40,278 nucleotides of DNA from contig NZ_SKOG01000152.1 in the NCBI RefSeq assembly GCF_007120195.1, positions 1-40,278 on the forward strand, given 5' to 3'. Below the pieces are notes generated by a model that was given only the letters and a program-made list of their open reading frames with translations, did no database searches and was not told the DNA's origin. The number at the start of each line of letters is the position of its first letter. The first letter of the stretch is position 1. This document shows positions 1-40,278 of this stretch, piece after piece. Origin of the DNA: Aquisalimonas sp. Its GTDB lineage: Bacteria; Pseudomonadota; Gammaproteobacteria; Nitrococcales; Aquisalimonadaceae. Position numbers and translations under genes: made by a program.

Positions 1-110
1 AGCGGTGTTGCGCCTCTTGCCAAGGGCGACGGCCATTGGCTGCGAGCCGCGCCTTGCTCCACGGCCGGACAGGCAGCTCAAAAGACAACGCATTTCGGTT
101 ACAGGACACT
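1..110 (+). repeat. Right-hand part of a dispersed MITE-like element, cut by the window edge
   Basis: This stretch is nearly identical to the reverse complement of the sequence near the right end of the window (40051 onward). It shares the terminal segment that reads TGTCCTGTAACCGAAAT on the minus strand (from 110 leftward). Its left part also matches the copy between gspI and gspJ (22193-22224). It contains one arm (CGGCCGGACAGGC, 62-74) of a long inverted repeat whose partner would lie beyond the window. No coding capacity is evident. It ends 24 bases before the EVE-domain gene, so it may carry or displace that gene's promoter. Confidence 0.8.
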
Positions 111-21049: not shown

Positions 21050-21595
21050 ATGGCGCGCCTGCCAGGCAGCCCCAGCAGGGGACATCGGCGTCACCAGTCC
21101 GGCTTCACGCTGATCGAGGTCATGGTGGTGGTGGTGCTCATCGGTATTATCACGACCCTGGCCGTACTCAATATGGGCGGCGAGGATGATCGCGTGGAGC
21201 GCGAAGCGCGTCGCCTGGCCGCGGTGCTGGATACCGCCGGCCGCGAGGCAGTAATCCAGGCCCGGGAGCTGGGGCTGGTGCTGGAGCCTGATGGCTATCG
21301 TTTCGCCCGCCTGGAAAGCGACGCATGGCGCACGGACGCCTATCAGCACGATCGCGCGCTCGGCGCGCACGCGCTACCGGGGGATTTGCGCTTGCGGGTG
21401 AGCACCGATGATCTCCCCGGTGAGCGGGAACCGGGTGACAACGACGACCGCCCCCATGTGCTGATCCTCTCCAGCGGCGAGCTGACACCCTTTGAGGTGG
21501 AAATCCGACGCCCTGGCAGTCGATCCCCGCCGTGGATCGTCACCGGGGAACTGGATGGCACCATCGACTATCGACAGGATGATGACCGGCCATGA
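21050..21595 (+). CDS. gspH: Minor pseudopilin GspH
   Basis: Encodes 181 aa. The leader ends S-G (17-18), followed by F-T-L-I-E-V-M-V-V-V-V-L-I-G and the hydrophobic helix. The remaining part fits the GspH fold. It starts 8 bases after gspG and overlaps gspI by 4 bases (ATGA), which implies coupled translation. The leader of 18 residues is longer than is typical for pseudopilins but still acceptable. Confidence 0.93.
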   Translation: MARLPGSPSRGHRRHQSGFTLIEVMVVVVLIGIITTLAVLNMGGEDDRVEREARRLAAVLDTAGREAVIQARELGLVLEPDGYRFARLESDAWRTDAYQHDRALGAHALPGDLRLRVSTDDLPGEREPGDNDDRPHVLILSSGELTPFEVEIRRPGSRSPPWIVTGELDGTIDYRQDDDRP

Positions 21596-22038
21596 CCGCT
21601 AGCAAAGCGCTCAACGGTAGTCGCGGCGACCTGCGCGGCCGCACAGGCGCGCGTGGCTTCACGCTGCTGGAGGTGATGATTGCCGTGGCGGTGCTCGCCA
21701 TCGCCATGACGGCGGTGATCAAGGCCGGGTCGGAAATGACCGCCAATGCCCGCCACCTGCAGGACCGCACGTTCGCCCAGTGGGTCGCCGGCAACGTCAT
21801 GGCCGAACTCCAGGCCGCCGCGTTCTGGGACGACGAGGGCGATGATGGCATCCAGTCCCTGGGCGGCCAGGAGTGGTACTGGGCCTTTGAGGTGCAGTCC
21901 ACGCCCAACCCCGATTTCCGCCGGGTCGACGTGGAGGTCTACCGCGACGAGGACGACGACGCCCCGGTGGCCACCTTGACGGGGCTTATCAGCGACCCGG
22001 CCATGACCGAAACCGTTGTGCTGGCGCCGGAGGCCTAG
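21592..22038 (+). CDS. gspI: Minor pseudopilin GspI
   Basis: Encodes 148 aa. The prepilin site is A-R-G/F-T-L-L-E-V-M-I-A-V-A-V-L-A-I-A-M, with the leader ending at Gly22. A typical small GspI C-terminal domain follows (Q-E-W-Y-W-A-F-E-V, R-R-V-D-V-E-V-Y). GspI joins J and K at the pseudopilus tip. The TAG stop (22036-22038) falls exactly at the left boundary of a dispersed repeat element, separating it from gspJ by about 179 bases. Neighbouring gene pairs overlap instead. Confidence 0.93.
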   Translation: MTASKALNGSRGDLRGRTGARGFTLLEVMIAVAVLAIAMTAVIKAGSEMTANARHLQDRTFAQWVAGNVMAELQAAAFWDDEGDDGIQSLGGQEWYWAFEVQSTPNPDFRRVDVEVYRDEDDDAPVATLTGLISDPAMTETVVLAPEA

Positions 22039-22224
22039 TGTCCTGTAACCGCCATTCGTTGTTTTTTTCTTGTCGGTGCGCCTTCGAGGCCAAGCGCTGG
22101 GCCGAAGGCGTAGCGGCCCCTACGGCGAGGATCGGCAACACCGCCTCGGAGGCGCACCGGCAAGCCCGCCGGGAGCGCCCATCCGACCGCGGAGCGGTGT
22201 TGCGCCGCTTGCCTAGGGTGACGG
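22036..22224 (+). repeat. Truncated MITE-like element between gspI and gspJ
   Basis: The left terminal repeat TGTCCTGTAACCG starts at 22039. From 22073 to 22224 the sequence aligns without gaps to the reverse complement of 40127-40278, with about 14 mismatches in 152 positions by eye. The right end of the element (about 76 bases in the other copies, with the second terminal repeat) is missing. GGTGCGCCTTCGAGGC (from 22075) and GCCTCGGAGGCGCACC form a long imperfect stem. The copy stays open in the gspJ frame throughout and contains the GTG at 22218. Confidence 0.8.
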
Positions 22225-22850
22225 GAGAACGGGGGTTTACGCTCATCGAGATTCTGGTGGCCCTGGCGATCTTTGCCCTGGTCTCCGCCGTGAGCTTCTC
22301 CGGCATACTGGTGATGGTGGACAATCGCGCACGGGTCACGAACCACGCCGACCGTCTGGCCGCCATCCAGACGGCCGTCAGCCTACTGGAGCGCGATTTG
22401 CAACAGGCCGTCGCGCGCCCGATCCGCGATCCCTTCGGTGATCCGCGCCCGGCGATGCTCAGCGAGGACCTGGCGGACCTGGAATTCACCCGTGCCGGGC
22501 GTTCCAATCCGCTGGGCCTGCGGCGCAGTGAGCTCGAACGTGTGGCCTATCGCATCGAGGACGAGCAGCTCGTGCGCCTGAGCTGGGGGGTGATCGATCA
22601 ACAGCCCGAACCCCCCCGGCAGGATCGCGCGCTGCTCAGCGGCGCGCTGGAGATTGCACTGCGCTTCATGGATGCAGACACGCAATGGCGAGAAACCTGG
22701 CCGCCGCCGGGTGACGCGCCAGGTTCACCGCAACTGCCACGCGCGGTGGAGTTTACGGTGATCCTCGAGGACATGGACCGCGTTACCCGGGTCCTCCTGC
22801 TGGTCGATGTGCCGGAGAGCCTGCAGTGGCCCCAGGATCTCGAACCGTGA
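22218..22850 (+). CDS. gspJ: Minor pseudopilin GspJ
   Basis: Encodes 210 aa from GTG 22218. The short leader V-T-G-E-R-G precedes F-T-L-I-E-I-L-V-A-L-A-I-F-A-L, a standard prepilin cleavage site. The C-terminal portion, with L-E-R-D-L-Q-Q-A-V-A-R-P-I-R-D and V-A-Y-R-I-E-D, is typical of GspJ. The frame is open upstream to GTG 22038, which would add 60 residues translated from a repeat element. I prefer 22218 because pseudopilin leaders are short, although no good ribosome-binding site precedes it; GTG 22197 and TTG 22200, just after a GGAG, are alternatives. The stop overlaps gspK (GTGA). Confidence 0.88.
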   Translation: MTGERGFTLIEILVALAIFALVSAVSFSGILVMVDNRARVTNHADRLAAIQTAVSLLERDLQQAVARPIRDPFGDPRPAMLSEDLADLEFTRAGRSNPLGLRRSELERVAYRIEDEQLVRLSWGVIDQQPEPPRQDRALLSGALEIALRFMDADTQWRETWPPPGDAPGSPQLPRAVEFTVILEDMDRVTRVLLLVDVPESLQWPQDLEP

Positions 22851-23890: not shown

Positions 23891-25099
23891 ATGAATCCGA
23901 CACTGTTGCTACGCTTGACCCCCGGCGATGCCCATGAGGCGCAATGGGCGCAGCTGGACCGTGACGCTCTGGTGGAACAGCGGGGCCGGGATGCGCTCCC
24001 GGCGTTGGGGGCCAATGCGCAGGGCCGAGACATCGTCGTCCTCGTGCCCACGGAGGAGGTCCTGCTGACCCGGGTCAGCATTCCAACGCACAACCGCCAG
24101 AGGCTCTTGCAGGCCATCCCCTACGCGTTGGAGGATCAGCTCGCCAGCGACATCGACGACCTCCACTTCGTACCGGGCCAGCGCATGGCCGATGGCACCT
24201 GCCCGGTGGCTGTGGTCGAACACGCGCGCATGGAGGCCTGGCTCGATGCCCTCGACGCGGCCGGTCTGCAACCCAAACGCATGCTGCCCGATGCGCTGGC
24301 CGTACCCCTGCAGGATGACGCCTGGGCCGGGGTCGTGGATGGCGAGCGCTTCCTGATCCGCACCGGGCCCAGCACCGGGTTTGCCGGCGAAACGGTAAAC
24401 CTGGCGGTGCTGCTGGATGCGGCTCTGGCCGACGCCGAGACGCAGCCGCCGCAACGGCTCGTCCTCAACGGTGACACACTGGATGCCGCCACCGTCGAGG
24501 ACGTGTTGGCCTTGGAGCAACAACAACGCCCGGCGGACGCCGTGCTGGCCGAAGGCATCGCTGGCGGCGGCGGGCTGGAGCTGCGGACCGGGCGTCATGT
24601 GGGGCGCCATGAACAACGCGCCCGCTGGCGACCCTGGATACCGGCCGCCGCACTGCTGGTCGCCTTCGTACTGGTGGACGCCAGTCGCGTTGTCGTGGAG
24701 CGGTGGCAATTGCAGCGGGAACTGGCGAGCCTGGATGCACGCGTGGAAACCATCTTTCGCGATGTCTTCCCGGATGCCACGCGCGTGGCCGCCCCCCGGG
24801 AGCGCATGCAGACTCACCTCAATCGCCTGCGCGCGGGGGAGCGACCGGCCGACGGCGACATACTCGACACGCTCCTGGTCGTCGGCCCCCACCTGCGCGA
24901 GAACCATTTCCGACTCGGCGGGCTCAGCTGGCGCAGCGACACCCTCGAGCTGGAGCTCACGGCGCGCACGCTGCAGGAGCTCGACGCGCTGCAACAGACG
25001 CTCGACGGCGAAGACACGCTCAACGTCGAAATCCGTCAGGCTCGCTCGCAAGACGACGAGGTGCAGGGCCGGCTGCTGATCCGGCGGGAGGCCTCATGA
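23891..25099 (+). CDS. gspL: Type II secretion system protein GspL
   Basis: Encodes 402 aa. An N-terminal cytoplasmic actin-like domain is followed by one transmembrane helix near W-I-P-A-A-A-L-L-V-A-F-V-L-V and a periplasmic ferredoxin-like domain. Family phrases include L-L-T-R-V-S-I-P and Q-A-I-P-Y-A-L-E-D-Q-L-A. GspL recruits the ATPase GspE to the membrane. The 99-base spacer after gspK contains a short GGGGC-ACC-GCCCC hairpin (23849-23861). AGGAA lies six bases before the ATG. The stop overlaps gspM by 4 bases. Confidence 0.92.
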   Translation: MNPTLLLRLTPGDAHEAQWAQLDRDALVEQRGRDALPALGANAQGRDIVVLVPTEEVLLTRVSIPTHNRQRLLQAIPYALEDQLASDIDDLHFVPGQRMADGTCPVAVVEHARMEAWLDALDAAGLQPKRMLPDALAVPLQDDAWAGVVDGERFLIRTGPSTGFAGETVNLAVLLDAALADAETQPPQRLVLNGDTLDAATVEDVLALEQQQRPADAVLAEGIAGGGGLELRTGRHVGRHEQRARWRPWIPAAALLVAFVLVDASRVVVERWQLQRELASLDARVETIFRDVFPDATRVAAPRERMQTHLNRLRAGERPADGDILDTLLVVGPHLRENHFRLGGLSWRSDTLELELTARTLQELDALQQTLDGEDTLNVEIRQARSQDDEVQGRLLIRREAS

Positions 25100-25584
25100 A
25101 GGAATGGTGGCAACAGTTGGCGCCGCGGGAACGCCAGGTGTTGCTCTTCGGCGGGGCTGCCCTTGCGGTGATCCTCTACGTCTTCGCCATCCGTATGCCG
25201 GCGGCGGAAGCCGTGGCGGAGCTCCGGACCCACGTCAGCCAAGAGCGCGAACTTGTCGCCTGGATGGAAGACAGCCGCCGCGAGATCCGCAGGCTCCGGG
25301 GACAAGCGGACCTGTCGACCGCCGGCGAATCGCCACACCAGAGCTTGTACTCTCTGGCTGACGCAAGCGCCCGGGAGGCCGGCCTCGATTCCGTACTCAG
25401 CCGCGTGGAACCCGCCGGTGGCAATGGTGCCCGTGTCAATTTCGAGGATATCGCCTTTGACGAACTGGTCCGCTGGCTGGTGCAGCTGCGCCGCGAGCAC
25501 GGCATCATCGCCGATCAGGTTACGGTTCGGCGCGGAACCGACCAGGGCCGTGTCAACGTGCAACTGGTCCTGGAACCGGCATGA
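25096..25584 (+). CDS. gspM: Type II secretion system protein GspM
   Basis: Encodes 162 aa. M-K-E-W-W-Q-Q-L-A-P-R-E-R-Q-V-L-L is the classic GspM opening. A single transmembrane helix (about residues 18-35) and a periplasmic ferredoxin-like domain follow. It stabilises GspL in the platform. The start sits in an ATGA overlap with gspL, and the end overlaps gspN the same way. The same frame is open far upstream inside gspL, but that part is a shadow. Confidence 0.92.
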   Translation: MKEWWQQLAPRERQVLLFGGAALAVILYVFAIRMPAAEAVAELRTHVSQERELVAWMEDSRREIRRLRGQADLSTAGESPHQSLYSLADASAREAGLDSVLSRVEPAGGNGARVNFEDIAFDELVRWLVQLRREHGIIADQVTVRRGTDQGRVNVQLVLEPA

Positions 25585-40047: not shown

Positions 40048-40278
40048 TAGTGTCCTGTAACCGAAATTCGTTGTCTTTTGAGCTGCCTGTCCGGCCGTGG
40101 AGCAAGGCGCGGCTCGCAGCCAATGGCCGTTCCCCTTGGCAAGAGGCGCAACACCGATGCGCGGCCGGACAGGCGCTCCCGGAGGGCTTGCCGGTGCGCC
40201 TCCGAGGCGGTGTTGCCGGTCCTCGCCGTAGGGGCCGCTACGCCTTCGGCCCGGCGCCTAGCCTCGAAGGCGCACCGA
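40048..40278 (-). repeat. MITE-like dispersed element, most complete copy, cut by the window edge
   Basis: The element end TGTCCTGTAACCGAAATTCG starts at 40051, and the copy runs off the window. It is the reverse complement of the copies at 1-110 and 22073-22224. Two large inverted pairs are visible: GCCTGTCCGGCCG with CGGCCGGACAGGC (perfect, 13 bp), and GCCTCCGAGGC...GCCTCGAAGGCGCACC-type arms near the edge. No open reading frame of note is present, so it is non-coding. Positions 39881-40047 before it hold only the purE promoter region. Confidence 0.8.

Follow-up and report, generated by a model that had tools for sequence, protein, structure and literature searches.

An IS630-type MITE remnant at the gspI stop codon and a possible relocated start of gspJ in Aquisalimonas sp.

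The gspI and gspJ genes of Aquisalimonas sp. are separated by the left part of a dispersed element that, judging by its ends and its target duplication, is an IS630-type MITE, and that begins exactly at the gspI stop codon. The account that we consider probable as a whole is that the MITE inserted at this stop codon and lost its right end, that gspJ would now be translated from a GTG formed at the left junction (GTG 22038), and that the resulting leader would be trimmed. The relevant features of the window, i.e., the whole 40,278-nt stretch of DNA that was analysed, are as follows.

21592 to 22038, plus strand: gspI (NCBIfam TIGR01707, above cut-off); its stop codon TAG occupies 22036-22038, the G being base 1 of the element
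22029 to 22033, plus strand: GGAGG Shine-Dalgarno (SD) sequence within the gspI 3' end, the putative ancestral SD of gspJ; anti-SD pairing estimate -9.5
22036 to 22037, no strand: TA, left copy of the target duplication, in CTAG 22035-22038; 27 of the 33 paired copies in this genome have a TA at each side
22038 to 22213, plus strand: IS630-type MITE remnant; the surviving 176 nt include the left inverted end, while the right 88 nt and right inverted end are lost, according to an alignment of 23 sequences
22038 to 22040, plus strand: junction GTG (in TAGTG), proposed present-day start; in frame with gspJ, frame open to 22850, SD 4 nt upstream (direct count)
22191 to 22202, plus strand: element-borne GGAG (22191-22194) with in-frame TTG 22200 and GTG 22197, candidate alternative starts; SD estimates -5.8 (TTG 22200) and -2.6 (GTG 22197)
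22214 to 22215, no strand: TA, probable right copy of the target duplication, in CTAG 22213-22216; same architecture at the zapA and sufU-like junctions
22218 to 22850, plus strand: gspJ from its probable native start GTG 22218 (TIGR01711, above cut-off); leader length matches three congeners

The original prediction placed a repeat at 22036-22224, and a search of the organism's own genome (G000, 4.05 Mb, 292 contigs) bore this out with 50 matches at E<=1e-3. The best non-self match is 92% identical over 188 nt, and 10 matches besides the window copy itself are at least 150 nt long. Similarity begins at the gspI TAG (22036-22038) and extends to 22224, as had been reported; the element itself probably does not reach that point, however, since with a TA duplication the proper element would span 22038 to about 22213. 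The right terminus was correctly described as lost, the window copy having the left end only, whereas full copies are 264 nt long with inverted ends. Copies also occupy both ends of the window (1-110 and 40048-40278), and the contig probably breaks at the repeat, both of its ends being inside copies. At Rfam thresholds no known RNA family was found anywhere in the window. Folding of 22015-22245 was only slightly better than that of shuffled sequences (z -1.95, with 9 of 200 shuffles as good), and a special RNA structure of the gspI-gspJ spacer was dropped on these figures.

Across this genome, 92 matches to element ends were found, and the alignment of 23 sequences, the window copy among them, gives family inverted ends of (A)GTGTCCTGTAACCGAAATTCGTTG. 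Paired copies measure 33, 50, 66, 159 or 264 nt, apart from two indel variants (32 and 262 nt). Measured from first G through last C, full copies come to 264 nt in three cases and 262 nt in a fourth. TA is present on both sides of 27 of the 33 paired copies and absent in the other 6, and the flank pairs ATAG/CTAT, TTAG/CTAG and CTAA/TTAG have only TA in common, which indicates a TA duplication. Two other readings of CTAG, a 4-bp target duplication and a portion of the inverted end, were given up in favour of TA, as the flanks of some copies share TA alone. An IS701-type origin had been guessed from the CTAG flanks; a DDE_5 search of the genome was empty, with a model that matched 2 of 14 control genomes, and the guess gave way when an IS630-type element turned up in Salinisphaera japonica. 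That element (L165) is a 1145-bp IS whose 365-aa product has a DDE_3 domain and whose ends are the same as those of the family: its inverted ends begin GTGTCCTGTAAC, as in the element family, and the family ends equal one of its ends over GTGTCCTGTAACC and differ from the other at the last base. A tblastn search with the 365-aa transposase matched 2445 plasmid records, and 9 of the 10 records listed were annotated as IS630 family transposase. Related ends within CTAG flank IS630-annotated transposase genes on plasmids (L198-L200), with ends CTAGTGTTCTG and CTAGTGTCCTG in L199 and L200 and CTAGTGCGCTG in L198. The identification as an IS630-type MITE therefore rests on the TA duplication together with ends common to the S. 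japonica IS and the IS630-annotated plasmid elements. According to excerpts of PMC2170065, the IS630-family element ISY100 likewise inserts into TA and duplicates it.

The IS630/Tc1-mariner ISs (L165, ISY100 and Shigella IS630) carry a transposase, whereas the element has none. A preference for TA within CTAG was reportedly described by Tenzen and Ohtsubo in 1991, going by the title of their paper. Searches for a DDE_3 transposase gave no match in the organism's own genome or in the congeners G002-G004 and one partial match in the congener G001, with a model that was positive in 3 of 14 control genomes and in an own assembly of 292 contigs from which an IS could be missing. Because no such transposase was found in this genome, mobility of the element is deduced from its repeats. 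A search of 40 genomes, the organism's own included, found an element match in 9; the congeners G001, G002 and G003 carry copies with identities of up to 74-76%, and G004 has none.

Paired copies of about 159-163 nt that share the family ends CTAGTGTCCTGTAACC also occur in Vicinamibacterales or Acidobacteria MAGs (L154, L156, L192) and in a Planctomycetota genome (L166). These copies in distant phyla have up to two mismatches at one end, and several of the MAGs seem marine by name. Within the organism's own genome, 22 copies are perfect or near-perfect 33-nt palindromes in which one end is joined directly to the other, for example C210:31578 (L116), C173:3301 (L133), C260:5156 (L123), C235:5797 (L119), C273:7006 (L134), C6:2986 (L103), C290:337 (L127) and C157:7202 (L131). 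Several show matching changes on both arms, e.g., TGTGCTG/CAGCACA, and in 9 of the 22 an end was scored as a gene stop. These palindromes may serve as 3'-end RNA hairpins, or their symmetry may be kept by DNA repair.

The 264-nt element also occupies two further operon junctions of this genome, in each case starting at the TAG that ends the upstream gene. At the TIGR02449/zapA junction (C246, L006), an intact 264-nt element lies at 1503-1766 and zapA begins with ATG 1772, 2 nt past the right TAG, with the right end of the element supplying AGGA 8 nt before the ATG; all four congeners are without insert there and have TGA at the same codon. The sufS-like/sufU-like junction (C193, L007, 17497-17760) likewise holds an intact 264-nt element, the insert occurs in none of the four congeners, and G004 (L210) has an empty CCTAG at the same codon, while G002 and G003 have TGA and the product of G001 is one residue longer. 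The ZapA and SufU models scored below NCBIfam cut-offs and PF05164 and PF01592 above those of Pfam, and the name sufS-like is a reading of an Aminotran_5 match. The sister junctions without insert in the congeners support the view that the element inserts cleanly into CTAGs at stop codons and duplicates the TA. A codon score classed 20 of 77 TAG or TAA element ends as gene stops, compared with 10 of 150 background CTAG sites, in a count that takes both ends of each element, draws its background from the loci around the elements and leaves out 18 other ends, one near-edge end and 12 near-edge background sites. The score was trained on 12 window genes including gspI, which is also among the 20 stops.

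The original prediction held that the insertion had broken the coupling of gspI and gspJ and proposed a comparison with relatives that lack it. The 4-base overlaps it had noted between neighbouring genes are present (H-I at 21592-21595, J-K at 22847-22850, L-M at 25096-25099 and M-N at 25581-25584). For the comparison, GspJ was searched in 30 genomes including the organism's own, of which 24 matched, and the junction was inspected in the window and, of the 23 other genomes with a match, in the 16 strongest; in G006 and G009, where the script missed the gspI frame, the overlaps were taken from the printed DNA. In 14 of the 16 relatives gspI and gspJ overlap by 1 or 4 nt, and the congeners G002, G003 and G004 have an ATGA overlap and no insert. 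Such tight overlap, shared by the three congeners that have gspJ, indicates that the insertion broke an ancestral tight coupling, in agreement with the earlier claim, although the congener stops are TGA and their flanks differ from those of the window. The two exceptions have their gspI stop 149 nt (G017, L046) and 127 nt (G023, L044) before the gspJ cleavage codon; G017 has no match to the element and G023 one weak 32-nt match on another contig, so gspI-gspJ spacers can also arise in other ways, without the element. The congener G001, rated 100% complete, has no gspJ match, unlike the other congeners, and may be without type II secretion genes.

It is improbable in the extreme that gspJ is unexpressed and the operon decaying. 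The broken gspI-gspJ coupling with its displaced SD and the lack of a gspJ match in G001 point that way; against this, the GspJ of the window is intact and 68-72% identical to those of three congeners, and it scores 120.6 bits with TIGR01711 against a cut-off of 64.85 and has the prepilin motif TIGR02532 and PF11612, despite a divergence of about 8.5% (15 of 176 nt) between the element copy and the family majority.

At the right border, a TA duplication in a CTAG target leads one to expect TA followed by G, and this is found at 22214-22216, followed by GGTGACGGGAG. Closing the site would give the putative empty sequence GCGCCGGAGGCCTAGGGTGACGG, in which the gspI stop is followed by one base and a GTG, with GGAGG six bases before it. 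If this GTG is native, the predicted empty site is GAGGCCTAGGGTGACGGGAG, with TAGGGTGACGG ahead of GAGAACGG. The estimated SD strength is -9.5 at the putative empty site, and -9.5, -8.9 and -8.1 in G004, G003 and G002, respectively, the start of these three congeners having been set one base early; all ribosome-binding figures given here are simple, uncalibrated duplex and unfolding estimates whose spacings are one less than direct counts. From GTG 22218 the leader reads MTGERGF, of the same length as MTRRRGF, MSRRRGF and MNPARGF in G002-G004. Because the TA within CTAG stands at the expected right copy, the leader has the length found in congeners and the empty site has an SD, GTG 22218 is probably the native gspJ start. 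It had originally been placed inside the element, a position that finds no support in a GTG that follows the CTAG of the expected right target copy, has no SD now and gives the congener leader length.

The similarity that continues to 22224 would also fit an element running on to that point. In 22214-22224, where the element has AAGGGCGACGG and the window TAGGGTGACGG, 9 of 11 bases match the copies in C193 and C190 and 8 of 11 that in C246; in 106 of 2000 shuffled elements, the start of the gspJ-side flank was matched at 9 or more of 11 positions anywhere. A chance origin of the 9/11 match is thus possible but not likely. Quite apart from where gspJ now starts, the earlier model, in which the element extends to 22224, the native start was lost and GTG 22218 is mutated element DNA, gains from this match, for which chance is a modest explanation. 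It would nevertheless need two changes, A22214T and C22219T, that jointly made a CTAG-borne TA and a GTG at both the congener leader length and the empty-site SD distance, and we regard it as quite unlikely. By this comparison, 22214-22224 is probably native DNA that resembles the element, and we infer that the 9/11 match may have served as a short direct repeat in the deletion of the right 88 nt.

The history that these observations suggest would begin with an IS630-type MITE, whose transposase was not found in this genome, inserting at the TA within the CTAG of the gspI stop codon. As the first base of the element is G, the gspI stop TAG would have been preserved, while the native gspJ GTG, one base past that stop, would have been displaced from the SD lying within gspI. 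The right end would have been lost later, probably via slippage between the 9/11 matches in the element interior and at the gspJ start; both the slippage and the order of events are what we infer. With the full 264-nt element, GTG 22038 would have stood 268 nt from GTG 22218 and out of frame, and after the deletion the distance is 180 nt and in frame. The junction TAGTG sets a GTG four bases behind the putative old SD, and this GTG now reads without a stop through 60 codons into gspJ. We suggest that GTG 22038 has become the main start of gspJ, yielding a precursor whose putative leader, 66 residues long, positively charged and non-hydrophobic, would be removed by prepilin peptidase, leaving mature GspJ as before.

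A new start, if one exists, may most likely be GTG 22038 (or TTG 22200). GTG 22038 combines an SD of -9.5 with the lowest unfolding estimate of the four candidates (15.9, compared with 20.4-24.3), and its surroundings, GGAGGCCTAGTG, are nearly identical to GGAGGCCTCATG at the start of gspM in the same operon. From the sequence we would put its use as the gspJ start at an even chance. It is rather unlikely that gspJ still starts at the native GTG 22218, with ribosomes scanning or reinitiating from the gspI stop, 180 nt upstream, to reach it at a reduced level. This start has by estimate no SD at present, compared with -8.1 to -9.5 at the empty site and in the congeners, and classical reinitiation is unlikely at such a distance; yet its leader has the length of those of three congeners, and gspE in the same operon is likewise without an SD. 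The unfolding estimate of 20.4 at 22218 equals that at gspH and lies near the 19.5 of the empty site, so structure does not speak against a start there. Unlikely, too, is a start within the element, for which TTG 22200 (or GTG 22197) would draw on the element-borne GGAG and give the leader MRRLPRVTGERG of normal length. That leader is short and Arg-rich and resembles the congener leaders, and GGAG 22191-22194 lies 5 nt from TTG 22200 by direct count (SD estimate -5.8); on the other hand, TTG is a weak start codon, the unfolding estimates at TTG 22200 and GTG 22197 are the highest among the candidates (23.1 and 24.3, compared with 15.9 at GTG 22038), and G 22192 of the GGAG is C in the family majority, though G in some copies.

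Translation from GTG 22038 would add 60 codons and give a leader of 66 residues, with 14 Lys or Arg and 6 Asp or Glu. The peak 19-residue hydropathy is 0.35 in the added leader, compared with 2.58 in the GspJ membrane helix. Since the added residues precede the prepilin-peptidase site, mature GspJ could be unchanged. Excerpts of PMC10191384 state that prepilin peptidase cleaves the leader on the cytoplasmic side after Gly or Ala and that leaders vary in length, and those of PMC6497953 give 8-18 residues for the prepilin leaders of S. sanguinis. A leader of 66 residues is long by that standard and might be tolerated.

The frame from GTG 22038 is open to the gspJ stop at 22850, encoding 270 aa with no stop between. 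The original prediction read the open frame as a sign that the insertion had been tamed, which the other copies do not bear out: 9 of the 10 other own-genome copies that reach 150 nt have the same frame open (the tenth, in C242, lacks 2 nt), and in neutral simulations with fifteen random changes it stays open in 70%. On the strength of the other own-genome copies, the open frame was rejected as evidence of domestication. The indel-bearing copies from other genomes have this frame open in one case of seven. The window copy departs from the family majority at 17 positions (two in the presumed native stretch), which divide among codon positions 1, 2 and 3 as 3, 10 and 4; 4 are silent and 13 are not, with 52 silent and 134 other sites available. 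No protein-level selection on the 60 added codons was seen among these 17 differences, which show no bias to silent sites, and evolution thus gives no support for their translation.

A wider reading, which we hold very doubtful, is that the element family is translation-transparent, landing on TAG stops, regenerating the stop, making an overlapping GTG and relaying ribosomes between operon genes. TIGR02449/zapA would be an example, and gspI-gspJ would be a later stage in which the deletion turned the relay into an in-frame leader fusion. The length is divisible by three in 28 of the 33 paired copies, 22 of these being of the 33-nt class. Frame 0 is open on the plus and minus strands in 21 and 21 of 22 copies of 33 nt, in 2 and 2 of 2 copies of 159 nt, and in 2 and 3 of 3 copies of 264 nt, and copies of these three lengths, read from TAGTG, reach their end at the second TAG, directly ahead of the following gene. 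However, an open frame is a frequent chance outcome in short or G+C-rich sequence, the length of the three 50-nt copies is no multiple of three, four of the five long paired copies in other Aquisalimonas loci are 263 or 265 nt long and one 264, and frame 0 is open in just one of the seven copies from other genomes.

The TA-flanked bacterial MITEs Correia/NEMIS and RUP differ from the Aquisalimonas element in sequence and host, and, unlike them, the Aquisalimonas element often lies exactly on TAG stops. They are also short, with inverted ends, a terminal TA and many copies, according to excerpts of PMC2229807. In excerpts of PMC2759123, PMC2229807 and PMC10969869, repeat ORFs of ERIC/RU-1, RU-2 and RPE are described as joined in frame to bacterial genes, YP_0349 being an example of an N-terminal fusion (PMC2759123, PMC10969869). 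As in the RU/ERIC/RPE fusions, the frame of the element is continuous with that of its host gene, here gspJ; unlike them, it is positioned at a stop codon, draws its putative start from the junction, downstream of an SD that was already there, and adds residues that a dedicated peptidase would presumably trim. The Chunjie MITE of Geobacter uraniireducens, another element among other genes, is said to lie in an operon whose structure is undisturbed. In excerpts of the openly licensed PMC literature, neither this element nor the targeting of stop codons by a bacterial MITE was found described.

The gspI-gspJ junction illustrates how a mobile element may insert into a coupled operon without destroying it: the stop is kept, the buried SD would gain a start at the junction, and the extra residues would fall in a leader that should be removed. 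With the same element at three stop-codon junctions of one genome (gspI/gspJ, TIGR02449/zapA and sufS-like/sufU-like), its effect on coupling is directly testable.
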